A stretch of 64,000 bases of DNA from Methanospirillum hungatei (GCF_019263745.1 NZ_CP077107.1:2418001-2482000); one strand, 5' to 3'. Positions 20,442 through 35,265 are shown, counted from the first letter of the stretch. Notes: generated from the letters alone by a model not told the origin. Program-made: numbers and translations.

Positions 20442-21203
20442 TCATGTGCTATCTTCAGTTGACATTTCAATTATCATCTCCCCCTTCCCTTTGTTTGCAA
20501 CATCCCCGTGGTATATCATCATACCCTCCTTCTCCTCTATCTTCTCAAATGATGGGAGCATATTATATACCCTTCCCCGGATTACTAACGTCCCTTTTGC
20601 CATATTCGCTCCGGGAATCCAGACATCTCCATCAATTATTAACGAGCCTCCCCGCATTTCGGCCCCGGCAAACATTCCTGCATTTCCATGCACATGAATC
20701 TCTCCTCCGGTCAGGTATTCTCCAAGATAGTCTCCAGCGTTTCCAAACACTTCTATCTTACCACCTCGCATACCTCTTTTTTCACCACGGTACCCGGATC
20801 CACAATAATCGCCGGCATTCCCATGACATACTATTGATCCGGCCCGCATCTCACGGCCAAGCCAGCCATCAGCATTCCCGTGAATCGCAATATTTCCACC
20901 TCGCATGAAATTACCGCAATGCATTCCGATATCACCTTCGATGGTGATCGTTCCGGAGGACATATACTCACCAACCCTTTTAACCCGGCTTGTATCTCCC
21001 CTTAAGACTACAACGATATTCTCCGGGGAGTTGACGTTCCCTTCCTTTCTGACAGTAAAAATATCTTCAAGACGGCGTTTTTTGTTACCTTCCCATACAA
21101 AAAGCTCCCGATTACCAATAAAATTCATTGGAATGATCATTTCAGCCTCTATGGGTATGAATGGCTTTGCCCTTGATTTCATGGTAAGGGTGACCTGCAT
21201 CAT
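20442..21203 (-). CDS. fwdC: formylmethanofuran dehydrogenase subunit C
   Basis: A 253-residue subunit with the repeated glycine-rich beta-helix typical of FwdC/FmdC and of the glutamate synthase alpha C-terminal domain: GNAGDYCGSGYRGEKRG, GNAGDYLGEYLTGG, GNAGMFAGAEMRGG. FwdC holds the FwdA and FwdB subunits together in the complex that reduces CO2 to formylmethanofuran. It is the last gene of the eha-fwd run, overlapping fwdA by four bases. Whether the enzyme is the tungsten (Fwd) or molybdenum (Fmd) isoform cannot be settled from sequence. Confidence 0.92.
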   Translation of the reverse strand: MMQVTLTMKSRAKPFIPIEAEMIIPMNFIGNRELFVWEGNKKRRLEDIFTVRKEGNVNSPENIVVVLRGDTSRVKRVGEYMSSGTITIEGDIGMHCGNFMRGGNIAIHGNADGWLGREMRAGSIVCHGNAGDYCGSGYRGEKRGMRGGKIEVFGNAGDYLGEYLTGGEIHVHGNAGMFAGAEMRGGSLIIDGDVWIPGANMAKGTLVIRGRVYNMLPSFEKIEEKEGMMIYHGDVANKGKGEMIIEMSTEDST

Positions 21204-22900
21204 TTGTCAACACCCGTCTTTATCGCGACACCCCGTTTGACATATTCATCCTGCACTAAGTAATTCTCAAGATCCACCGAGTAAAACCGTGAAAATTTTT
21301 CAACAAACCGGGGACTTTTCATGATATCCATGTCGTCAGGCAAATCAGAATGTACCCAGAATGTTCGATTTGCAACACCCCGAATAACCTCTCCATCCTT
21401 ACTTACTACAATCCCGTCTTTTAATGTATACAAAGTCTGCTGAAATGCTCCAATAACCTCTTCATATTGTAGGGAAGGATCTGTTTGATCTGGTTTTAAT
21501 GGATAAATTGCAATATCTGCAAGAGATCCTTCTCTGAAGTGCCCCTTTCCCTGCTCGATAAGACCAAGAGCTTTTGCCTGTCCTGAACGAGTCATTACCG
21601 CGATATCTTCATAGCTCAGCTCGCGATCGATGGTTCCGAGTGATGTTCGTTCAGTTGTCAGTTTATGAACCTGTCCAAGTTCTTTTTCCCGATATTTATT
21701 GGACATCAAAAGGCCAATTATCTCCGGATATTTAACAAATGGGGCCCCATTTGGATTATCTGTCGTGAGCATACACTGCCAGGGGTTTTTGATAAGAAGG
21801 GCAAGTTCAAGACCAATTGCCCACATGATACTGTTCACTAAACTCTTTCGGCTATAATAAACGGGAATAACTCCTGACCCGGTCTCAAGCTCAACATCAT
21901 GATTGCTCCATTTGTTACGATGGAGGGTATAGAGCCGGAATTCCATCGGACCGTCGGCTGTCATCGTCATCGTGCGGCCAAACATGACCTGGCCCATATC
22001 AATAACAACCTGTGGTTTGATATTTACTGATCCAGCGATCTTTTCAGCTTCAGAACGAATGTCTCCCCAAGTATTCCCCCCATAGGAATGGAACTGAACA
22101 TGGGTGAGATACAATGTCTGTCGGTCCGAATTCAGGTCAGATGGAATGTCAAGGGTCTGTAGTGTCGTTCGATAATTTCCCGGCATCCCAAGGTTATTGC
22201 AGTGGAGGTGAACCGAGTGGGGAAGGTGCAGGTATTCGCAGGCTTTTATCGTGACATCAATGATCTGTCTGGGGGTAATATCCCAGTTTGGAACCACCTC
22301 ATCAATTCCTGAAAGATCATCACCAAATCCCCAAGCTTCAGTTCCTCCCGGATTCGTTAATTTAATACCAAAACCCTTGACTGCAGAAAGTGTCCATCCG
22401 ATAACAGCCGCCGCTTGTCTGATATCATTGTCACCCACTGCTTCAAAAAGACTCCAATTTCCATCAAAAAGAGTATTTGCAAGCATATCCTGCATGGGAG
22501 TTGCAGCAAACTCCTCATGGGTGTGGCGGGCTTCCATAGGTGCCATTGCCCCTTCAAGGAGCGTTGTGTACCCCATTTTGCTGTACCGGTAACTGTTCCC
22601 ATACGTAGTCGGTACAGTATATCCTGATGTAGGATACATAGGCCCACGTCGTGGAGTTCTTCCGGCCCTCATATCTTCAGGGCTCATATATCTGCCAAAA
22701 TTCACTTTTGTTCCACAAACATGGGTATGTGAATCAATTCCACCCGGAAGAGTGAGATTTTTTCCAGCGTCAATGACCTGACTGGTTCCAGAGACTTTGT
22801 CGACAATCCGGCCATCACGGATGGGAATATCCATAATATCCCCATGGATTCCCTGAAGAGGATCAATAACAAAGGCATTTTTTATCAGGAGCTCACGCAT
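21200..22900 (-). CDS. fwdA: formylmethanofuran dehydrogenase subunit A
   Basis: A 566-residue amidohydrolase-fold subunit that condenses formate, made in FwdB, with methanofuran at a binuclear metal site. Visible ligands are His58 and His60 (GGIDSHTHV), a lysine in VKGFGIKLTNPGG that would be carboxylated, histidines in SVHLHCNN and YLTHVQFH, and an aspartate in LTTDNPNGAPF. The length matches family members. It overlaps fwdB by eight bases and fwdC by four, indicating coupled translation. No truncation or odd residue was noticed. Confidence 0.95.
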   Translation of the reverse strand: MRELLIKNAFVIDPLQGIHGDIMDIPIRDGRIVDKVSGTSQVIDAGKNLTLPGGIDSHTHVCGTKVNFGRYMSPEDMRAGRTPRRGPMYPTSGYTVPTTYGNSYRYSKMGYTTLLEGAMAPMEARHTHEEFAATPMQDMLANTLFDGNWSLFEAVGDNDIRQAAAVIGWTLSAVKGFGIKLTNPGGTEAWGFGDDLSGIDEVVPNWDITPRQIIDVTIKACEYLHLPHSVHLHCNNLGMPGNYRTTLQTLDIPSDLNSDRQTLYLTHVQFHSYGGNTWGDIRSEAEKIAGSVNIKPQVVIDMGQVMFGRTMTMTADGPMEFRLYTLHRNKWSNHDVELETGSGVIPVYYSRKSLVNSIMWAIGLELALLIKNPWQCMLTTDNPNGAPFVKYPEIIGLLMSNKYREKELGQVHKLTTERTSLGTIDRELSYEDIAVMTRSGQAKALGLIEQGKGHFREGSLADIAIYPLKPDQTDPSLQYEEVIGAFQQTLYTLKDGIVVSKDGEVIRGVANRTFWVHSDLPDDMDIMKSPRFVEKFSRFYSVDLENYLVQDEYVKRGVAIKTGVDK

Positions 22901-24197
22901 TTCCTTTCAACTCCTTAATTCTGCTATATATCTGTTCTAATAGGGAGGTATCGGTTGGATAGCCGTTGTCAAGGAATTTCCGGGTTCTGATTGGAATGCC
23001 ATCCATACGGTATGCTGTTCCTTCTGCATCAATGCCATTGACTGCTGATGGTATCTGGAGGGTACAAAGGTGGGTTGTTGCACTTGGATATGGATCAAAG
23101 AGAATGGTGGGTATCTTTGCAAGATGTTCTGAACACACACGAGGAAAATGAGCACCAGGATCACTTGCCATAATCAGGGCTGCATCAGCTTCTCCACGAG
23201 CCAGGATATCCACCGCGGTTGTCTCACCAGGATTATAAAATGCGATTCCTCGTGAATAATCTACAGCAAATGGATACCCACTTATCCAGGTGAAGACTTC
23301 GTTTGATCCGTATACATTTGAATGTCCTCGCATCGGGGATATGGTCCATTTCGTATGACGATTTAATTCATCAACAAATTCGATTGCATTCCGAATATTT
23401 TTGTATTTACCCCCGGTCATCGTAACACCGACCCCAAAGAAAAGGGCCCCAAATTTTGCTTGTTTACAGATATCTGCAACCCTGATAAGCTGACTTTTTG
23501 GAACCCCTGCAACCATATCCGGGATAATGTCTGCTCTTCCCCTGATTATTGTTCGAAGAGCTGAAAGGACGTGATAATCACCACCCTGTTCTAACTGGAC
23601 ATACTCAGTTGCGATCTCTGCGGTTGCAGTTTTCCTGACATCAACTACGATAACCTTACGTTCACGAAATGCGTTATGAAAAAAATATGCATCTGCGTAA
23701 TTTGTATACCTGCTTAGATGCCTCGGGTGGGCCTCGATTGGATTGGAACCCCAATAAATTATGGTATCCGCCCGGTTCTTTACCTGTCCGAGTGTGCATC
23801 CCGGATGACCTACTTCTTGAATCGCCAGAATAGAGGGTCCATGACACACTGATGTTGTACTATCAACGACACCTCCGATAAGTTCCGCCAGATGAGCACC
23901 GATTGCCTGAGTTTCTGTCACACATCCGGACCATCCATACAGAAGGGGGCGATCTGCTTCTGATAGTATTTGTACAGCGTAATCGATTGCTTCTTCATAG
24001 GAGACATCTATCCATTGATCCCCTTTTCGCATAATCGGCCCTTTTAGGCGGTTTCCTGCATCATCTAAAAATTTGTGGGCACCTAATGTACAGGCATTCT
24101 CAACGCCGGATATTTTTCTGTCGGTCAATTCTATGAGAATATCATCACAAAGACAACCACAATACGGGCAGACAACATGTCTTATATTATCTACCAT
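22893..24197 (-). CDS. fwdB: formylmethanofuran dehydrogenase subunit B
   Basis: This is the molybdopterin-containing catalytic subunit that reduces CO2 to formate. Near the N-terminus is a [4Fe-4S] cysteine set (HVVCPYCGCLCDD with a further cysteine in ENACTLG). The metal-ligand cysteine is in TTSVCHGPS (Cys122 counting from the upstream GTG, Cys118 from the chosen ATG). It is a cysteine, not a selenocysteine codon. The ATG at 24197 is preferred because it follows GGTGGTG at ribosome-site distance; an in-frame GTG at 24209 would add four residues. It overlaps the end of fwdD. Confidence 0.95.
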   Translation of the reverse strand: MVDNIRHVVCPYCGCLCDDILIELTDRKISGVENACTLGAHKFLDDAGNRLKGPIMRKGDQWIDVSYEEAIDYAVQILSEADRPLLYGWSGCVTETQAIGAHLAELIGGVVDSTTSVCHGPSILAIQEVGHPGCTLGQVKNRADTIIYWGSNPIEAHPRHLSRYTNYADAYFFHNAFRERKVIVVDVRKTATAEIATEYVQLEQGGDYHVLSALRTIIRGRADIIPDMVAGVPKSQLIRVADICKQAKFGALFFGVGVTMTGGKYKNIRNAIEFVDELNRHTKWTISPMRGHSNVYGSNEVFTWISGYPFAVDYSRGIAFYNPGETTAVDILARGEADAALIMASDPGAHFPRVCSEHLAKIPTILFDPYPSATTHLCTLQIPSAVNGIDAEGTAYRMDGIPIRTRKFLDNGYPTDTSLLEQIYSRIKELKGNA

Positions 24198-24576
24198 ATG
24201 GGACACCACCCAGTTTTCGCATTAGTTCACCAACACTTGGAATTTTGTCCCCGGTCCCCTCTATCTCTCCTTCTGCCTCTTTAAAATCAGGCATCCCTGT
24301 GCTATGAGTGGTTCCTCCGACAAGGTAATTTGCATATGGTCCGAGTGGTAGAAATCCGGTTCCTCTTTTTATAGTTTCATCAGAAATGGCCCGGAGTACA
24401 ACTGATCCATCTGATACCGTAACCATGACCCGTTCACCATCATCGACCCCCATCTCCATCATATCAACAGGATTGAGTCGTATTGTGGATGCCTCCCGGT
24501 AATATTCTGATGAATTTTTCTGATCTACGTGAGAACCCTGCACAACAGTTCTGCCAGTATTTATTCGGATTTTCAT
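24187..24576 (-). CDS. fwdD: formylmethanofuran dehydrogenase subunit D
   Basis: A 129-residue protein with the molybdopterin-dinucleotide binding fold that completes the active site together with FwdB. Diagnostic blocks are TIRLNPVDMMEMGVDDGERV, VVLRAISDE and GFLPLGPYANYLVGGTTH with the terminal glycine-rich loop. It overlaps the preceding polyferredoxin gene by four bases and fwdB by eleven. Its position directly after a hydrogenase polyferredoxin is the joint of the eha-fwd supercluster. Confidence 0.92.
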   Translation of the reverse strand: MKIRINTGRTVVQGSHVDQKNSSEYYREASTIRLNPVDMMEMGVDDGERVMVTVSDGSVVLRAISDETIKRGTGFLPLGPYANYLVGGTTHSTGMPDFKEAEGEIEGTGDKIPSVGELMRKLGGVPYGR

Positions 24577-25184
24577 GACTCCTCCTCAATCTGGAGAGGT
24601 TCAAGAACCCGTGCTACGAGAATTGATCGGGTAGGGCATTGCTCTTCACAGGTCTTGCATCCGGTACATTTGTCCTCATGAAACACCGTGTTGATCCCTT
24701 TGTATACCCTCATAATGACCTCATCTGAGGTGCTTGTCCCTTTGGCGGCAAGTTGGGGATCTATCTCTTTGTTGACCGGGCAAGCAACTGTGCAACTTCC
24801 ACAACCCATGCAGGTAACCGGATTTACCGTGATGTGGAACTGGAACTGCATGTATGTGCCATCCTGAGCATTTTTTGTATGAACCCGTCCAGCATCAAGA
24901 ACCAGTTCCGGGCAAATCTCAACACACAGGCCACACCTGATGCAATGCCCAAGGTGTATCACTGGTTTCCATTCTCCAGGCTTCTCAGTTCTGACAATTT
25001 CTATTGCTCCAGGAGCCGGGCACACCATCATACATTGAAAACAATGCGTACACTCTCTTCCAGTCAGATGGGGAAATTCCCTGAAATGGGGTGGAGTTGT
25101 CAGAGGGGCGGTTTTCGCGAGGAAAAATGTTTTAATCCACTCCGGCCTGGCCATATGTTGAATATATGATAGGATGGATCTCAT
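24573..25184 (-). CDS. polyferredoxin with four [4Fe-4S] motifs linking Eha and Fwd
   Basis: 203 residues with four cysteine motifs: CTHCFQCMMVCP, CIRCGLCVEICP, CMGCGSCTVACP and CTGCKTCEEQCP, enough for four [4Fe-4S] clusters. The N-terminal part before the first motif resembles NuoI/MbhN-type subunits that dock on a hydrogenase membrane arm. It lies 3 bases after the hydrogenase large-subunit gene and overlaps fwdD. It is therefore well placed to carry electrons from the [NiFe] module to ferredoxin or directly to formylmethanofuran dehydrogenase. It would be an EhaP/EhaQ-type subunit; which one cannot be decided. Confidence 0.88.
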   Translation of the reverse strand: MRSILSYIQHMARPEWIKTFFLAKTAPLTTPPHFREFPHLTGRECTHCFQCMMVCPAPGAIEIVRTEKPGEWKPVIHLGHCIRCGLCVEICPELVLDAGRVHTKNAQDGTYMQFQFHITVNPVTCMGCGSCTVACPVNKEIDPQLAAKGTSTSDEVIMRVYKGINTVFHEDKCTGCKTCEEQCPTRSILVARVLEPLQIEEES

Positions 25185-25187
25185 GGG

Positions 25188-26273
25188 TTACCTCTCAGTA
25201 CAGGCAATACACGGGTCAGAGCTGATATATGCCGCAGTGACATCTGCAACCGATGTTACACCCGGAATCATGTATCGTGCACATGCTTCGATGTTCATAA
25301 TAGACGGGGTCTGGATAGATATCTCCTGGATTCTTCCATGGGTGTCTGATTTTACCCGGTAGGTTAGTTCTCCCCGGGGTGCTTCACCCTGATGAGTGGT
25401 CTCTCCTCTTCCAATAGTACCTCCTCCCCGTATTTTTCCCTCTGGCAGGGTACGGATAACTGATCTAATCAGATCCACACTCTGTAATATTTCCTGGAAA
25501 CGAAGCATAACCCTGGCATAGTTATCCCCTTCAGTCCGTACGAGAGGCGAGAAGTTCAGTCTCTGGTATGTCGGATGATCTGACCTGCAGTCGGTTGTAA
25601 TACCACAGGCCCGTGCAGTGGGCCCGACTGCGTGGATGAGCTCTGCCTGCTCCCGTGTCATCACTCCGATTCCCTTACTTCGAAGTCCGATAAGCGGTCC
25701 GGATTCAAACATATTCATGTACCGGCGGGTTTCACGCTCAACATCATCCATGGCGTTCATAATCCGCGTAAGGTCTTCACTATCAGGGTCAAACCGTACT
25801 CCTCCCGGAATGATATATGCACAGGTAACCCTGGCACCGGTAAGATATTCGAGCATGTCCATGACCGTTTCACGGATATTGAGGAGATACATCCCGATGG
25901 TCTCATGTTCGATGGTATAACAGTACGAGAAGTTTGCAATGAGGTGACTTTGCATCCGGTCTAGCTCATTTGCCAACACCCGGAGGTATGCTGCCCGATC
26001 TGGAACCATGACTCCTGATATCTTCTCCATCGTCTCGATAAACACAAAGTTATGGATGACTGAACAGATTCCACACACCCGTTCAGCAAGGAACATGACT
26101 TCCTGCCAGGGTCTGCCGACCATTATCCGTTCTATTCCTTTCTTCATGTATCCAAGCTCTACTTCTGCTGCAAGGATCTGTTCGCCGAATGTCTCACACT
26201 TTATCCGGCATGGTTCCTTGAAGATGGGATGTACTGGTCCGAGCGGAATTGATACATCAACTGTTTTTCTCAT
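25188..26273 (-). CDS. ehaO: energy-converting hydrogenase A large subunit
   Basis: The 361-residue [NiFe] catalytic subunit. Both nickel-ligand pairs are intact: Cys67/Cys70 in ERVCGICS and Cys355/Cys358 in DPCIACTER. The protein ends at that arginine, so there is no C-terminal extension of the kind removed by hydrogenase maturation proteases. Together with EhaN and the membrane subunits it should oxidise H2 and reduce low-potential ferredoxin at the expense of the ion gradient. Its stop is 3 bases from the polyferredoxin start, and the small-subunit stop overlaps its start. Confidence 0.93.
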
Positions 26274-26722
26274 CTCCGGATCTCCCAGTCTTTGAAAATC
26301 AGAGGAGCTACTGATAGGATTGCCTGAATGATCTCTGTAGGTCGTGGAGGACAGCCGGGAACCTCTGCAGCAATCGGGATATAACTCTTAGCAGGAGCTT
26401 TTGTGAGTGTCTGTGGCCTTGAAAAGACACATCCCGATATCGGGCAGTTTCCAATGGACACCGCTACCTTGGGTTCAGGGATTTTATCCCATACCATTTT
26501 CAATTTGTCTTCCCACTGGGGCGTCACACCTCCGATAACCAGAAGTACATCCGCTTCACGGGGATTATTATGGACATAGATACCGTATTGTTCAAGATCA
26601 TAACGGGGAGACAGACATGCCAGGACTTCGATATCACACCCATTACAAGAACCAGTATCTACATAACAGACATGAATGGATCGTTGTCTGACAGCATTTT
26701 TTACTGACTGAAGCAATGTCAT
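26270..26722 (-). CDS. ehaN: energy-converting hydrogenase A small subunit
   Basis: A 150-residue small subunit carrying one proximal [4Fe-4S] cluster. Its likely ligands are Cys26 and Cys29 ([10 protein letters not shown]), Cys93 (GNCPISG) and Cys124 (PGCPPRP). The length matches the compact NuoB-like small subunits of membrane-bound energy-converting hydrogenases. It overlaps EhaM and EhaO by four bases each. Confidence 0.93.
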
Positions 26723-27096
26723 GATGAAATCTCCCCAAATAGTAATCTTCGAAGGATTACCCGAACGTTTTCAGGATCATCGGGGTTATCTGTGACTTCC
26801 CTGAGTGATTTGTCCAAATCCGCCTGGGATATAACGGGGATAAATCTGGTAAAAAGATCATACCCGATTTCTCGTCTGACACCTTCATTTCGATCTACCT
26901 GATTCATCCAGCTGTCAAATCTTGCTCCAAGAGATTCAAGCATCATCATATCAAGGTTTTCTATAAGGAGCCGTCGCATCTTCATAGGAGGGATTTCAAG
27001 CAGATCTGCACAGGCTGTGATCACTTTTTTATGATATGGACTTTTGAGAATAGCATATTTCATCTCATACAGGTCACGTTCGTATACTTCTGTCAT
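26719..27096 (-). CDS. ehaM: Eha subunit M (DUF1959-type soluble subunit)
   Basis: About 125 residues, soluble, rich in charged helices, of the DUF1959/EhaM type found between the membrane genes and the hydrogenase pair. The start at 27096 is chosen over the longer frame beginning at 27153. The ATG has a GGAGG site eight bases upstream and overlaps the previous stop as ATGA, whereas the longer frame would overlap the previous gene by 60 bases. Its biochemical role is unknown. Confidence 0.82.
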
Positions 27097-27338
27097 ACCA
27101 GTCCTCCGGATTTTAAAATCGCGTACAGCCCGAAAAGGAGAATACATATCCATATTGCGATCATTTCACCCGTATGAAGCATGTGATCTTCCTTTGTATA
27201 TGGGAGAACTGCAAGAAAAGCCAGAAGGGCAATTCCAATAATTGCCTGCCACAAAACATGCCCCTGAATGAGTTCCATGGCAAATAGCAATCCATAAACA
27301 ATTGCTCCTCCCAGGAGGGTTATCTGAATCCGGTTCAT
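27093..27338 (-). CDS. Eha small membrane subunit (EhaK/EhaL-like)
   Basis: An 81-residue protein with three predicted membrane helices (LLGGAIVYGLLFAMELI, AIIGIALLAFLAVL, MIAIWICILLFGLYAIL). It is placed where EhaK or EhaL occurs in other eha operons; sequence alone does not tell which. It overlaps ehaJ and ehaM by four bases. It is presumably part of the membrane arm. Confidence 0.75.
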   Translation of the reverse strand: MNRIQITLLGGAIVYGLLFAMELIQGHVLWQAIIGIALLAFLAVLPYTKEDHMLHTGEMIAIWICILLFGLYAILKSGGLV

Positions 27339-28177
27339 CCCATCACTCCTGTGAATATGATGTATATTGCAAGAATTCCTGTAATGACTGTTTGCAGGGC
27401 TACGGCATCAAATGGTGAGAGCATGGGAGTAAAAGCACAAACGAATGAGAGGGAGACAAGGAGAACCAGCATTGCGAGCAGCATCAGATACCAGGGAAGC
27501 CCTCCGATAAAGAGCAGAACGAACACTGATAGTAAAACAAATGTTTTGAGAGCATAGGCAACCTCTAGCCCTGCCCTCCAGACACCGAAGTGTTCAGTCC
27601 GGTTTCCTGAAACAATCTCCTTCGCTTCAATAATCGAAAATGGTCCGTAATGCATTTTTGATAGAATAACGATATAAAGAGCGATGGCGATAGGAAATGC
27701 CCCGATTAATAATGGCCCATGTGCCTGCTGGTATGCAATGATGTCACTGATCATAAGCGATCCGGTAACTACATAAATTCCAGCAATTGTTGCAAATAGG
27801 GGGATCTCTGATGCTGCCGACATGACTGATCGGATAGCCCCGAATTTACCATATGGGGATCCAGATGAGAGTCCAAGCCCATGTTCAGTAATTTTGTGAA
27901 GCATAAATACAGCAAAGAGGAGAAGAAGGCTCCCACCACTAAATACAATATAGAATGCCCCGGTCCAGATTGCGATGGATACTGCCACTATGAAAACGAA
28001 CATTGGCATACTCGCTGTTTTCGGTATCCATGTCTGTTTAAACGAAAATTTTAGAGTGTGTAATATTTCCTGCCAAACCGGCGGTCCGGGTCGTCCCTGT
28101 ATTCTGGCGATTACTTTCCGATGTATGCCATGAAAGAGAAGGCCGATAAAAACTGCTGGAATTATCAGTGTTATCAT
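27335..28177 (-). CDS. ehaJ: energy-converting hydrogenase A subunit J (NuoH-like)
   Basis: About 280 residues, seven or eight membrane helices, homologous to complex I subunit NuoH. Visible family traits are RKVIARIQGRPGPPVWQEI after the first helix, the acidic SSAASEIPLF-type loop (here VMSAASEIPLF), and the glutamate-rich GPFSIIEAKEIVSGNRTEH. It links the hydrogenase module to the ion-translocating arm. The start at 28177 (MITLIIPAVFIGLL) is preferred. A longer frame reaching 28270 would run 93 bases into ehaI and add a non-helical leader. Confidence 0.9.
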   Translation of the reverse strand: MITLIIPAVFIGLLFHGIHRKVIARIQGRPGPPVWQEILHTLKFSFKQTWIPKTASMPMFVFIVAVSIAIWTGAFYIVFSGGSLLLLFAVFMLHKITEHGLGLSSGSPYGKFGAIRSVMSAASEIPLFATIAGIYVVTGSLMISDIIAYQQAHGPLLIGAFPIAIALYIVILSKMHYGPFSIIEAKEIVSGNRTEHFGVWRAGLEVAYALKTFVLLSVFVLLFIGGLPWYLMLLAMLVLLVSLSFVCAFTPMLSPFDAVALQTVITGILAIYIIFTGVMG

Positions 28178-28178
28178 G

Positions 28179-28382
28179 TTAATACCCGGTAAAGGGGATA
28201 TCCCCATCTGTATTCGATGCATTCCACCAGAGAAAGAGTGCCAGGATGAAGAGCGGAAAGGTAAGTACAATTATTACAACTGCAAGCCATCCCGGTTCAA
28301 TTCCGATAGAAACGGCATATGATGCAAGTCCAAGAATTATTGCCGTGATGATTGTTACTATCAGATATGACTCTTTTTTCAT
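28179..28382 (-). CDS. ehaI: Eha small membrane subunit I
   Basis: A 67-residue protein with two hydrophobic helices (YLIVTIITAIILGLASYAV and WLAVVIIVLTFPLFILALFLW). It sits between ehaH and ehaJ, where EhaI is expected, with only 2-base gaps. Function within the membrane arm is unknown. Confidence 0.8.
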   Translation of the reverse strand: MKKESYLIVTIITAIILGLASYAVSIGIEPGWLAVVIIVLTFPLFILALFLWWNASNTDGDIPFTGY

Positions 28383-28384
28383 TA

Positions 28385-29041
28385 TTACACCGTCAGAATA
28401 ATTTCGATGACCCGAAGGAAGATGAGCAGTGAACTAACATGGATCATAAGAACGTACGGAGCTCCTGGAGCTCGTGTAATTTCTGCTTTTGCAATGTAAA
28501 AGGGAGCCATCCCTTCTCCCATTACACCAAGAACCAAAAACATTTTTGCAGCCAGGGGAACCATCCCCATACCGGCAAGCTCCCAAATAGACAGTGTTCC
28601 ACAGGTTCCAAGGGCTGTTGCTGCACCACCAAAGAGAAATGTTGTAGCAACCATGGCCACTATCCCATAATTATACGCAGCATTCAGGACATACCGGTTA
28701 TTGACTCCGGCAACGATTCCAATATTGGTAATACCGATTAGTGCGGTAAAGAGAGAAAAATTAAAAAGATCGCCGGAACTTACTGCACCAAGAGTAGCAA
28801 GACCACAGGCAATTGCCATGAACCTTTGGAACCTGAGGTTCTCTGGGTTTATTTCTTTTGTATAGATAGCATCGGTTCCAAATACGATATCAGTCTGTCT
28901 TTCTGGTCGTGCAATTATGGCGATGATGATAAAAGCTGTCGCAAACAAAAACAATGTCGTGGTATACAGACTGAAATAGTTGACTATGTCTCCAAACTCC
29001 AGGACAAAGAGTTCCTCTCCTTCGATAGGCAGATCAAACAT
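28385..29041 (-). CDS. ehaH: energy-converting hydrogenase A subunit H (antiporter-like)
   Basis: A 218-residue membrane protein resembling part of the NuoL/MrpD-type antiporter subunits. FNFSLFTALIGITNIGIVAG corresponds to the helix before the discontinuous helix, and PLAAKMFLVLGVMGEGMAPFYIAKAEI to the lysine-bearing helix and its loop. It is likely the proton- or sodium-conducting subunit of Eha. It overlaps ehaG by eight bases. Confidence 0.85.
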   Translation of the reverse strand: MFDLPIEGEELFVLEFGDIVNYFSLYTTTLFLFATAFIIIAIIARPERQTDIVFGTDAIYTKEINPENLRFQRFMAIACGLATLGAVSSGDLFNFSLFTALIGITNIGIVAGVNNRYVLNAAYNYGIVAMVATTFLFGGAATALGTCGTLSIWELAGMGMVPLAAKMFLVLGVMGEGMAPFYIAKAEITRAPGAPYVLMIHVSSLLIFLRVIEIILTV

Positions 29042-29630
29042 TTCGTCCCTCCCGCATGGTGCCGATAAGTGCCATTTTGGTGGTTACTTTTACGAGGATC
29101 GCTCCTCCGGAGAGCATCACGGCAATCATCCATGCCTGTGGCAGTATCATGAAAATAAAGAATGCCACAATCCAGAGTGCCCATGCGTACCCGGATATCG
29201 TCTCAAGCAGCACAAACCGTTCTTCATATCCCTTGCAGAGGAAGTAGAATACAAGCCCTATTCCTGCAACTGCACCACCTGAAAAACCTGAAAGGATTAT
29301 TCCATACACTACCAGGGCAAAGGTAATAATGGGTGGTGCTGTCCGCATGACCTCAATCCGGATTGGTTGAAATGTCGGAAGAGGGAGTTTCTCTTTCCGG
29401 ATATACAACTCAGTGAGCATCAACAGTTCAGATATACCGACTACAAGCCCCGGGAGGATCAGGGCTTCTGCAAGATCAGTTGCAACAAGGCAGATGAGAA
29501 CAAGACCTGTGGTTTCTATCAGGTCCACAACCAGAATTTTATGGATATCATCCCGTTCGAAGAAAAGAGCAATGAATGATATGGCAACACAACTCAGGGT
29601 GCCTAATAAACCGATCTGATAAAAATCCAT
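29034..29630 (-). CDS. ehaG: Eha membrane subunit G
   Basis: A 198-residue integral membrane protein with about six helices. The acidic residues in ILVVDLIETTGL and VGISELLMLTELYIRKEKLPLP are characteristic of EhaG. Its start overlaps the last base of ehaF. Individual function is not known. Confidence 0.83.
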   Translation of the reverse strand: MDFYQIGLLGTLSCVAISFIALFFERDDIHKILVVDLIETTGLVLICLVATDLAEALILPGLVVGISELLMLTELYIRKEKLPLPTFQPIRIEVMRTAPPIITFALVVYGIILSGFSGGAVAGIGLVFYFLCKGYEERFVLLETISGYAWALWIVAFFIFMILPQAWMIAVMLSGGAILVKVTTKMALIGTMREGRNV

Positions 29631-30097
29631 CAGTCTTTCCTCCTGAAAAGAAATGATGCAATGGCAAATGCAGTAAAAAGAATGCTCGTCTCTACCACGG
29701 TATCAAGGCCCCGTGTGTTATAGAGGATTTCATCAAGGATTCCTCCTGGATGTGCAACAATTGTTGTTCCGAGGAAATGCGTATTATTTGCCAGGAACCA
29801 GGAGAAAGGTGTCAGGTATGTTGTCACGTACCCGGCTGTAGGGGAGTTATCCGGGTACTGTGATTTAATATCGACTCTGGTAAACGGAATTCCTCCCCGG
29901 TCATAGGGATCAAGTGTTGAATCCCGGTTAATTGTTTTTGAATAGATCTGGTCCTCATGATAACTTAACATCGGAACCATAATTACCCCGCATATGGCAA
30001 CTACAATGCCTAATGCAGCGTACACTGCAACGAGGTTTTCATAGGTGGACATCCAGTTCGAGAATATCCGAAAGCCACGTCCTATCCACCGTATCAT
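29630..30097 (-). CDS. ehaF: Eha membrane subunit F (MnhB-like)
   Basis: 155 residues, with helices at both ends and a polar centre. The sequence GGILDEILYNTRGLDTVVETSILF matches the RGLDT-x-x-E signature shared with MnhB/MrpB and MbhE-type subunits, so this is part of the Mrp-like module of the hydrogenase. It overlaps ehaE by four bases. Confidence 0.85.
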   Translation of the reverse strand: MIRWIGRGFRIFSNWMSTYENLVAVYAALGIVVAICGVIMVPMLSYHEDQIYSKTINRDSTLDPYDRGGIPFTRVDIKSQYPDNSPTAGYVTTYLTPFSWFLANNTHFLGTTIVAHPGGILDEILYNTRGLDTVVETSILFTAFAIASFLFRRKD

Positions 30098-30330
30098 TCT
30101 TTTGCCCTCCTTTCAATCAACAACACGAGAACAAAGGTAGTCAGGGTTGATACTGCGATGAATGTCAATAATGCCAGCGTTTCATCAAATGACAATGCAA
30201 CGAGGAGCAGTCCGAATGCCGGAATCTCCAGGTTGATAAGACGGGTCAGGTACTCCCGGTCACGGGGAAAGGCACTTACCCACGTTCCGATGATGAGCAG
30301 AATCAGACCTATAAAAAACTCAGGGCTCAT
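30094..30330 (-). CDS. ehaE: Eha membrane subunit E
   Basis: 78 residues with three hydrophobic helices and the polar motif LTRLINLEIPAFGLLLVALSFDE, typical of small Mrp-like subunits in eha operons. It overlaps both neighbours by four bases. Confidence 0.82.
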   Translation of the reverse strand: MSPEFFIGLILLIIGTWVSAFPRDREYLTRLINLEIPAFGLLLVALSFDETLALLTFIAVSTLTTFVLVLLIERRAKE

Positions 30331-30557
30331 TCAGCCCCCTTTTTACAGAGCTGAAGAACGAAAATTGTTGAAAGTGGTATTATCACTGCAAGGGCTGCTG
30401 CCACATCCACATACCCACGTGCAACAATGAGGGGCATTATACCTCCTCCAATAATTCCGATTGCGATAAGTTTTGCATAGGGATCCCGTGCGAATCCTGC
30501 ATATATCCCTCCGATTAGGATAATGATACAAAATAATAGGATCAACAGGATGTTCAT
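30327..30557 (-). CDS. ehaD: Eha membrane subunit D
   Basis: About 76 residues, three helices, with FARDPYAKLIAIGIIGGG resembling the DP-x-x-KLIA signature of MrpF/MbhC-like subunits. The ATG at 30557 overlaps the ehaC stop (ATGA), which supports it over a frame opening seven codons earlier. Confidence 0.82.
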   Translation of the reverse strand: MNILLILLFCIIILIGGIYAGFARDPYAKLIAIGIIGGGIMPLIVARGYVDVAAALAVIIPLSTIFVLQLCKKGAE

Positions 30558-30880
30558 TCCTCTACCCCTCCGGCCCATGTGCTTGCTATAGCATTTGATT
30601 CAAATGTTGAGCCGACGAAGTAGGCTGCAGCGGCAATAATTCCAAGCGGGTGAGGAATAAGAAGGGCCATTATCCCTGCAATTGCAAAACTAAATACATT
30701 CAGGAATGGCAGTTTTCGCATGACATCCTGTTCAAGAATAATTCTGATGACTGCATAGAGAGCAATCAGCCCACAGATTAATGCAGCAAGTTCTGCACTT
30801 TCAGATGGGGGGCTAATCTGTGAGGTAGAAAATGGCCCGGAAACCATGTTGAGCAGTTCTTCTGATCCACTGATGCTCAT
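30554..30880 (-). CDS. ehaC: Eha membrane subunit C
   Basis: About 108 residues, with a short polar N-terminus and then three helices (ELAALICGLIALYAVIRIIL, FAIAGIMALLIPHPLGIIAAAAYF). The ATG at 30880 has a GGAGG site eight bases upstream and overlaps the ehaB stop (ATGA), so it is preferred to an ATG five codons upstream. It is larger than some EhaC proteins because of the N-terminal extension. Confidence 0.8.
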   Translation of the reverse strand: MSISGSEELLNMVSGPFSTSQISPPSESAELAALICGLIALYAVIRIILEQDVMRKLPFLNVFSFAIAGIMALLIPHPLGIIAAAAYFVGSTFESNAIASTWAGGVEE

Positions 30881-31362
30881 CTCCGGATCCTCCATAATGC
30901 TCCAAGAAGCCTGCTTGCGTGTTTATGTGAAATCCCCTGAATTGTCAGAATAGCGATGACCATCCCGGCGATAAAATATTCTGCGGGTATTCCGCCAAGG
31001 GTTCCAAGATATACCATAAAAGTAGCAAAAAAACATCCTGTTGTTCCGGCATAACCTGGATCATAGCAGATCCGGTTGCCGATATATACCAGGATAGTTG
31101 CCATCAAACCACCTGGAATTCCTAAACAGTACACTCCACAAGCAGCCAGGAGAGTACCTGCAGATGCATCAGGGGAGGATACGATATTTCCCATCATAGT
31201 TCCTCCTCTGATGTCACCTCCAGCTTTTTCGACTGCCGTTGCAATTGCTTTAGCTCCGACAACCCCCCCTTCACGGGGCAGTGCCCAAATTATATCAATA
31301 GTGATAAAGAGAACCCAGCAGCAGAGGGCCGCAAAGGCAATCTGAAGGAACGAAGTAATCAT
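30877..31362 (-). CDS. ehaB: Eha membrane subunit B, first recognised gene of the operon
   Basis: 161 residues, about four helices, with the glycine-rich loop GGDIRGGTMMGNIVSSPDAS and GNRICYDPGYAGTTGCFFATF typical of EhaB. No EhaA-like frame precedes it; the next minus-strand frame upstream is not membrane-like. There is no clear ribosome site, and the probable TATA box (31421-31427) implies a leader of only about 36 bases. Confidence 0.82.
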   Translation of the reverse strand: MITSFLQIAFAALCCWVLFITIDIIWALPREGGVVGAKAIATAVEKAGGDIRGGTMMGNIVSSPDASAGTLLAACGVYCLGIPGGLMATILVYIGNRICYDPGYAGTTGCFFATFMVYLGTLGGIPAEYFIAGMVIAILTIQGISHKHASRLLGALWRIRR

Positions 31363-34530: not shown

Positions 34531-35265
34531 ATGAAAATCCTTCATATAGCCGGGTGGTCAGGCTCTGGGAAAACAACATATATTCTTCAGCTCTGTTCAC
34601 ACCTTGTTTTACTTGGGAGAACAGCGACTATCAAACATATTGGAAGTCATCACAGTAAACTACCGGTTGGAAAGGACACAACACTGCACTTTCAGTCTGG
34701 AGCTGATCCTGCAATTGGGATTGATGAAGAAAAAACATCTGCTTGTTTTCACAGTGTAAACCTTGACGACGCCCTGAATTTTCTTTCCGATGCAGGTGTT
34801 CAATATGCAGTTATTGAAGGTTTTAAGAGCAGACCATTTCAAAAGATTCTTATTGGAGATTTGGATTGTTCGTTCCTGTTAAAAAGTCCAGAGATTCCAC
34901 AGGTTTTATCCGTTCTCGATCAGTTTGATGATTGGTATACACTCCCCGGTCTTGTAAATGAGATGCGAGTTCAGCACCCTGATGATAATATCCTGACATG
35001 GTCAGGATATACAACAGATTATAAAAATACTGTTGATTTTTGTGCAGAGGTTGAAAAAGATTTTTTAGCTAAATCACATATCACTAGTATTCGGATTCGC
35101 GTTCAAAAATGGTCTGATTCCGACAATTTTCCGGTGTATGTGGCATTATCTGCAAAAGATCCACTTATTGCTGTACAATATTTGTCTGACGCCATGCAGA
35201 GAATTTCTCCTTATGTGATGCAATCAATGCAGGATAATCGTTCTGAAAAAGATCCACGTATATGA
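34531..35265 (+). CDS. mobB: molybdopterin-guanine dinucleotide biosynthesis protein B-like, with C-terminal extension
   Basis: 244 residues. The first 150 match the MobB GTPase: P-loop AGWSGSGKTTYI, TATIKHIGSHH, DTTLHFQSGADPAIGID and VIEGFKSRPFQKI. MobB assists attachment of GMP to molybdopterin, the dinucleotide cofactor required by FwdB/FwdD, which fits the nearby eha-fwd operon. The last 80 residues (TSIRIRVQKWSDSDNF, VYVALSAKDPLIAVQYLSDAMQRISPYVM) extend beyond MobB and faintly recall the MoaE C-terminal region; that fusion is tentative. A GGAGG site lies 13 bases upstream of the chosen ATG. Confidence 0.82.
   Translation: MKILHIAGWSGSGKTTYILQLCSHLVLLGRTATIKHIGSHHSKLPVGKDTTLHFQSGADPAIGIDEEKTSACFHSVNLDDALNFLSDAGVQYAVIEGFKSRPFQKILIGDLDCSFLLKSPEIPQVLSVLDQFDDWYTLPGLVNEMRVQHPDDNILTWSGYTTDYKNTVDFCAEVEKDFLAKSHITSIRIRVQKWSDSDNFPVYVALSAKDPLIAVQYLSDAMQRISPYVMQSMQDNRSEKDPRI

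Follow-up and report, generated by a model that had tools for sequence, protein, structure and literature searches.

Gene content and order of the operon

The window analysed here, a stretch of 64,000 nucleotides from Methanospirillum hungatei (NZ_CP077107.1:2418001-2482000, designated G000:C1:2418001-2482000), is part of a closed 3.39-Mb Methanospirillum genome and contains on its minus strand a long operon for the hydrogenase Eha, a ferredoxin with four [4Fe4S] clusters (Pfd), and the core subunits of formylmethanofuran dehydrogenase (Fwd or Fmd). The operon extends from 31362 to 20442 and consists of 18 genes, in the order ehaB to ehaL, ehaN, ehaO, pfd, fwdD, fwdB, fwdA and fwdC. An earlier note, which was made from the sequence alone, had listed thirteen eha genes, the ferredoxin and fwdD-B-A-C on one strand, and all 18 were recovered where it had placed them.

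The first gene, ehaB (30877..31362; all coordinates of the operon refer to the minus strand), was placed by gene order and by 52-89% identity to EhaB of relatives; order and homology to relatives served also for ehaI (28179..28382) and ehaK (27093..27338). Eha-specific DUF families of Pfam identified ehaC (30554..30880; PF09882, 2.7e-33), whose ATG overlaps the stop codon of ehaB by 4 bases, ehaD (30327..30557; PF09881, 1.7e-23), ehaE (30094..30330; PF09880, 2e-29), ehaF (29630..30097; PF09879, 2.4e-60), ehaG (29034..29630; PF09878, 3.4e-77) and ehaH, the gene for an antiporter-like membrane subunit (28385..29041; PF10125, 7e-103). A NuoH-like membrane subunit is encoded by ehaJ (27335..28177; PF00146, NADHdh, 1e-32); ehaL (26719..27096) gave a weak match to PF09218 (DUF1959) and was assigned by position and homology. 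The small and large subunits of the [NiFe] hydrogenase are encoded by ehaN (26270..26722; PF01058, Oxidored_q6, 1.4e-26) and ehaO (25188..26273; PF00346, Complex1_49kDa, 3.3e-49, and PF00374, NiFeSe). EhaO contains both NiFe-binding CxxC motifs, RVCGIC and DPCIAC, as do all relatives listed, and its nearest solved structures are Mbh (6cfw_L) and HycE of formate hydrogenlyase (7z0s_E). With the EhaB-O set, its conserved order and the Eha-specific DUF families, the hydrogenase belongs to Eha, the group 4h energy-converting hydrogenases. EhaA and EhaM were not found in the operon; eha sets of this order without A and M were already reported in PMC2686161.

Downstream of ehaO follow pfd (24573..25184), fwdD (24187..24576), fwdB (22893..24197), which encodes the subunit with Mo/W-bis(molybdopterin guanine dinucleotide) (bis-MGD), fwdA (21200..22900) for the amidohydrolase subunit and, as the last gene, fwdC (20442..21203). 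FwdB, FwdA and FwdC scored above the curated NCBIfam cut-offs (TIGR03129, 604.6 bits; TIGR03121, 815.5 bits; TIGR03122, 282 bits), while FwdD stayed below its family cut-off (NF042908, 6.5e-28) and matched PF01568. FwdB possesses the [4Fe4S] cysteines and the metal ligand Cys118, and FwdA the zinc-ligand motifs; the four subunits A, B, C and D with their catalytic-site residues make this a Fwd/Fmd. Separate genes for FwdF, FwdG or FwdH were not found in the operon, i.e., the electron-entry subunits G and F are not co-encoded with the Fwd core.

With best start codons, the junctions from ehaB to fwdC measure -4, -4, -4, -4, -1, -8, +2, +1, -4, -4, -4, -4, +3, -4, -11, -8 and -4 bases. Ten of the 17 are 4-base overlaps and four further ones are overlaps of 1-11 bases, with a whole range of -11 to +3; the genes are packed tightly, if slightly more loosely than in the earlier description, which, the first gene apart, had allowed only four-base overlaps and gaps of up to four bases. 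A strong promoter or terminator between ehaO and fwdD had been named there as an argument against a common operon. No minus-strand terminator-like site was detected between ehaO and fwdB in a bacterial-type scan. A bacterial-type promoter scan gave 24 matches versus 27 expected, which is chance level, and by the number of archaeal BRE (B recognition element)/TATA matches the region upstream of ehaB was not distinguishable from gene interiors; since this count gives no separation, it speaks neither for nor against an internal promoter. Near the operon lies a MobB-like gene (34531-35265, plus strand; named by eye), and a similar gene is located between fwdC and fwdA in a relative of the Methanospirillaceae (L090 3687-4547, plus strand).

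The ferredoxin between EhaO and FwdD

Pfd has 203 residues with four CxxCxxCxxxC motifs and occupies the position of EhaP. It stands exactly at the joint of the eha and fwd genes, as had been pointed out; the reason for this is its being the terminal Eha subunit, since it remains beside ehaO where the fwd genes are elsewhere, within the order Methanomicrobiales and outside.

The C half (residues 116-190) is FwdG-like. It matched full-length FwdG in single-sequence searches (8.5e-16 and 7.5e-13) and in profile searches (9sfi_U, 1.1e-22; 5t5i_G, 3.1e-17), where multi-domain FwdF also scored high. In an AlphaFold2 model of Pfd, with a mean predicted local distance difference test (pLDDT) value of 82, the C half superimposes on FwdG of 5T5I with 1.5 A over 78 columns, a template modelling (TM) score of 0.88 with respect to FwdG and 37% identity. 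Residues 116-190 show the features of the FwdG fold, namely about 80 residues, two clusters and a long insert between the motifs. The spacing between motifs 3 and 4 is 48 residues in Pfd versus 46 in FwdG, and such a spacing is absent from EhaP of class I methanogens, whose median FwdG score was 13 bits versus 35 for Pfd, with one Methanothermococcus EhaP reaching 31. When a hidden Markov model (HMM) of true FwdG sequences was applied to 127 ferredoxin open reading frames, the C halves of Pfd ranked next after FwdG itself and, in most loci, above FwdF and HdrA domains by modest margins. In its own genome, the best match of the C half outside the Pfd family is FwdG.

The N half (residues 1-105) is similar to NuoI (3e-12) and HycF (4.6e-10), and an N-terminal helix pair is present in the model; the fold match is weak and FwdF scores higher. 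Since this half also matches multi-cluster ferredoxins, its assignment is less certain than that of the C half. Pfd appears to combine one half of a hydrogenase subunit with one half of a subunit of Fwd, and its C half is the likely counterpart of the fwdG gene missing from the operon. The absence of fwdG, noted previously along with that of fwdF and fwdH, would hold for a separate gene only. The open-licence papers, to which the literature search was confined, did not contain this chimeric interpretation.

The only FwdF-FwdG pair of the genome is located about 330 kb from the operon, in an HdrABC-MvhD cluster (L068, G000:C1:2759001-2776000) with fwdDBAC, a second fwdD-fwdB pair, MvhD, HdrABC, FwdF and FwdG; altogether the genome contains five FwdB copies. 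Two genomes of Ca. Mnemosynella, one of them rated 100% complete, contain Fwd, Eha and a four-cluster Pfd; FwdF and a separate FwdG were not found in these two genomes, and their best FwdG match is the Pfd adjacent to Eha.

Some variation of Pfd was observed. In several lineages (e.g., L071, L072, L088, L089, L093) the second cysteine in the motif of cluster 1 is replaced (CxxE/H/S instead of CxxC), so that this cluster may be bound by three cysteines or by another ligand at this place. A stand-alone paralogue with 58-63% identity in both halves is encoded in the same genome (G000:C1:2514150-2514815, minus strand; L184 14150-14815), adjoining moeA-like genes and a sulfite-reductase-like gene; a hydrogenase is not nearby.

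Linkage and co-inheritance in the Methanomicrobiales

The arrangement of eha and fwd genes as such is not new. It was published in 2009 by Anderson (PMC2686161) for Methanocorpusculum labreanum, Methanoculleus marisnigri and Methanospirillum hungatei, where Eha was suggested to supply Fwd and the first step to be coupled to the membrane gradient; the polyferredoxin is not discussed there (0 mentions). In Methanocorpusculum parvum, Gilmore 2017 (PMC5563889) distinguished a Fwd set associated with Eha from another associated with Hdr, and suggested a dedicated isoform of Fwd and different ferredoxin partners for the two sets. The flanking of eha by fmd in Methanospirillum is noted also in PMC11346949. 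The order-wide survey, the co-loss, the isoform tree and the analysis of Pfd as a chimera go beyond these papers.

The survey, which had been suggested as a synteny search, comprised 150 genomes of the order Methanomicrobiales, many of them draft; 109 are near-complete. EhaO was present in 94 of the 109, and all of these 94 also possess an "Eha-type" FwdB, i.e., one close to that of the window. FwdB was found directly downstream of EhaO in 70 of the 94, belonging to 19 genera, with a median gap of 998 bases; the linkage thus extends over nearly the whole order, and the same gene order in so many genomes is not due to chance. Linkage was counted from coordinates, because many rows marked as unlinked ("unl") in the FwdB tree derive from short loci which do not reach ehaO. 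The remainder consists of 12 genomes of g24, nine of g13, g18, g20 and g27, and three contig breaks. In the loci read of g24 (Methanocorpusculum-like), eha, pfd, fwdA and fwdC are together and a fused FwdD-FwdB gene lies about 8-10 kb from EhaO; such fusions, all in the Eha-type clade and within a few kilobases of eha-pfd-fwdA-fwdC, are found in L085 (3291-4997), L086 (15340-17046) and L099 (15170-16876). A ferredoxin fusion, which had been suspected in the long FwdB frames of the Methanocorpusculum-type genomes, was rejected, since the frames are these FwdD-FwdB fusions. In the loci read of g13, g18, g20 and g27, fwdDBAC adjoins the other Fwd operon, away from Eha.

In the FwdB tree, the Eha-type and Hdr-type clades are separated by a branch of 0.92 with support 100/100, and the Eha-type clade comprises all linked copies together with those that are relocated or fused. 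In the 15 near-complete genomes that lack EhaO, FwdB scores only at the Hdr-type level (Eha-type FwdB in 0 of 15, counts which are not phylogenetically independent), and those included in the tree fall into the Hdr-type clade. As the EhaO-less genomes lie in three families, at least three joint losses must be assumed. In one of the genomes considered (G039), loss of the cluster as a neat unit was rejected: the gene which precedes ehaB in relatives is also gone, hence there is no clean scar. Co-presence and co-loss support a functional tie between Eha and Fwd.

Outside the order, but in the same phylum, true EhaH was found only in two small families, and in the loci read from these families, among them those of Ca. 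Mnemosynella, Eha is accompanied by Pfd with the fwd genes not alongside. The stored flanks of the class I loci read (Methanobacteriaceae and Methanococci) contain no core gene of fwd. In the loci compared, linkage to fwd is thus confined to, and a trait of, the Methanomicrobiales; a ferredoxin beside EhaO is older.

One genome (G077) is unusual. Its locus (L092 6020-12170) contains EhaJ-K-L-N-O, Pfd, FwdD, FwdB and FwdC; EhaB-H lie on the same contig at a distance of 43 kb (L140). FwdA is missing from the locus, and the single FwdA of the genome belongs to its other Fwd set. A tyrosine replaces the metal-ligand cysteine in its FwdB, the sole case among 76, and the protein has a long branch in the tree. 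Eha persists in G077 beside a Fwd which is apparently catalytically dead. Insertions between fwdA and fwdC were seen in M. stamsii (L069 4631-5348), with a toxin-antitoxin-like gene pair (PIN-domain-like), and in a Methanocalculus (L101 3518-4573), with an RRXRR/IscB-like protein, both named by eye.

Possible electron path from hydrogen to carbon dioxide

It appears fairly probable that Eha, Pfd and Fwd form one direct membrane complex, in which Pfd takes the place of FwdG and wires EhaN to FwdB. The product of the locus would be an ion-gradient-driven, membrane-anchored H2:CO2/methanofuran reductase. Hydrogen would be oxidized at the [NiFe] site of EhaO, and H+ or Na+ entering by way of the membrane arm of EhaH and EhaJ would bring the electrons to a potential low enough for CO2 reduction. 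From the cluster of EhaN they would enter the NuoI/HycF-like N half of Pfd, pass its clusters 1-4 and leave by the FwdG-like C half, which would dock on FwdB where FwdG is situated in other Fwd complexes. By way of the FwdB cluster they would reach the tungsto- or molybdopterin; CO2 would be reduced to formate by FwdBD, and the formate would tunnel to FwdA and be condensed to formyl-methanofuran. What the sequences show is the gene content and order, the family assignments, the conserved catalytic residues, the co-inheritance, the constant association of Pfd with Eha, and the similarity of the modelled Pfd halves to known subunits; the physical complex, its stoichiometry, the direction of electron flow and the coupling ion are inferred. 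H2 at -414 mV alone is too weak a donor for Fwd-class enzymes (PMC11656701), a problem that an ion-driven hydrogenase would solve. The complex might serve as a private supply for replenishing the cycle independently of the bifurcating Hdr system, which has its own Fwd, FwdF and FwdG in the same genome. Such an anaplerotic use is inferred from genetic work with M. maripaludis (Lie 2012, as cited in PMC11346949). Whether the fusion of a hydrogenase ferredoxin with FwdG plugs Eha into Fwd throughout the Methanomicrobiales and in Mnemosynella, resulting in a single ion-driven complex which produces formyl-methanofuran from H2 and CO2 with no free ferredoxin, is about evenly balanced.

Several points weigh against a direct complex. 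In four genera (g13, g18, g20, g27) Eha-Pfd and the Eha-type Fwd are encoded apart from each other, electrons could still be shuttled by a free ferredoxin, and the single FwdG/FwdF pair of the genome could also serve the Eha-type Fwd. Ferredoxin domains are all alike in sequence, as stated also in PMC11493965, and with the FwdG HMM Pfd outscores FwdF and HdrA domains by little, the difference ranging from zero to about 18 bits; because specificity for FwdG by sequence is weak for this reason, it is backed by the fold, the motif spacing and the gene inventory of Mnemosynella. With the N half, multi-cluster FwdF outscores NuoI, and the AlphaFold2 model gives no trusted relative placement of the two halves (predicted TM score, pTM, 0.65). 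The shared complex or electron channel which the earlier note had derived from co-encoding would not follow from co-encoding alone, since the four genera keep Eha and Eha-type Fwd unlinked; the functional tie stands, and the chimeric Pfd favours the complex.

The separate loci would fit with mere co-regulation, in which Eha passes electrons by way of Pfd to a pool of soluble ferredoxin, the Eha-type Fwd draws on this pool and the operon keeps the two enzymes in balance. This is close to the published interpretation (PMC2686161, PMC5563889), and in the four Methanomicrobiaceae-like genera Fwd persists although it is encoded elsewhere. What co-regulation leaves unexplained is the FwdG-type half fused to a hydrogenase ferredoxin, the operon without fwdG, and Mnemosynella without separate FwdG and FwdF; it would seem a possible but rather doubtful explanation. 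If, on the other hand, the Eha-type Fwd borrowed FwdG and FwdF from the Hdr cluster, it would be an isoenzyme in the bifurcating supercomplex, e.g., for another metal supply, and its linkage to eha would be historical. With one FwdG/FwdF pair for several Fwd sets, sharing must occur for some of them. Borrowing is nevertheless improbable, since the Eha-type Fwd is gone together with Eha from 15 of 15 genomes, all of which retain Hdr-type Fwd, and since Mnemosynella offers no FwdG or FwdF for it. The reverse direction, with oxidation of formyl-methanofuran driving H2 evolution and ion export through Eha, is conceivable insofar as group 4 hydrogenases, like Fwd, can work in either direction and the architecture resembles the H2-evolving formate hydrogenlyase. 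The hosts are CO2-reducing methanogens, however, and Eha of M. maripaludis is described as anaplerotic and ferredoxin-reducing (Lie 2012, cited in PMC11346949), which makes this direction very unlikely.

If the direct complex is real, methanogenesis would have a third means of driving its first step, in addition to bifurcation at Hdr and to soluble ferredoxin. The electron hand-over from Eha to CO2 would take place in a defined, purifiable complex instead of by a diffusing ferredoxin, and the replenishing of methanogenesis on H2 in Methanospirillum, which is without Mvh, would be explained. About 80 residues of Pfd would be a concrete target for structural and genetic work.

Among known systems, the eha-fmd clusters of M. 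hungatei, M. marisnigri and M. labreanum (PMC2686161) are alike, having the same eha set without A and M and adjoining Fwd genes, and there, too, Eha was suggested to supply Fwd; the window itself is from Methanospirillum, and its congener M. stamsii (G149) also carries the locus. Class I Eha (Methanothermobacter; PMC3087415) shares the core subunits, their order, and EhaP after EhaO with a similar N-terminal start. However, EhaP of class I carries 6-8 clusters and lacks a clear FwdG-like half, more polyferredoxins follow, and fwd is unlinked; where class I Eha has an EhaP with at least six clusters and then EhaQ, the operon has four clusters, no EhaQ, and fwdD as the next gene. The M. hungatei complex 7BKB agrees in the FwdA-D catalytic core with its residues and in FwdG-type clusters next to FwdB, but contains separate FwdG and FwdF and is fed by Hdr electron bifurcation, not by an ion-driven hydrogenase. 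Formate hydrogenlyase-1 of E. coli (FHL-1; 7Z0S/7Z0T) works in a similar manner, with a group 4 [NiFe] hydrogenase, an iron-sulfur link and a bis-MGD subunit for formate/CO2, but it has two separate ferredoxin subunits (HycF, HycB), lacks FwdA and FwdC, and evolves H2. Instead of FdhF with separate HycB and HycF, the operon encodes FwdBD and one four-cluster protein; Eha-Pfd-Fwd may at most be likened to a formate hydrogenlyase in reverse and is not a member of that family. According to a 2024 review, subunit G is the docking site of the polyferredoxin F, and the structure of the F420-reducing Fwd of Ca. Ethanoperedens (8RJA, PMC11493965) shows that the partner on G is exchangeable. There, too, another electron module replaces the usual donor FwdF, but it is the flavoprotein FwdI, acting through FwdG, whereas in the operon FwdG itself is apparently fused to a hydrogenase subunit.

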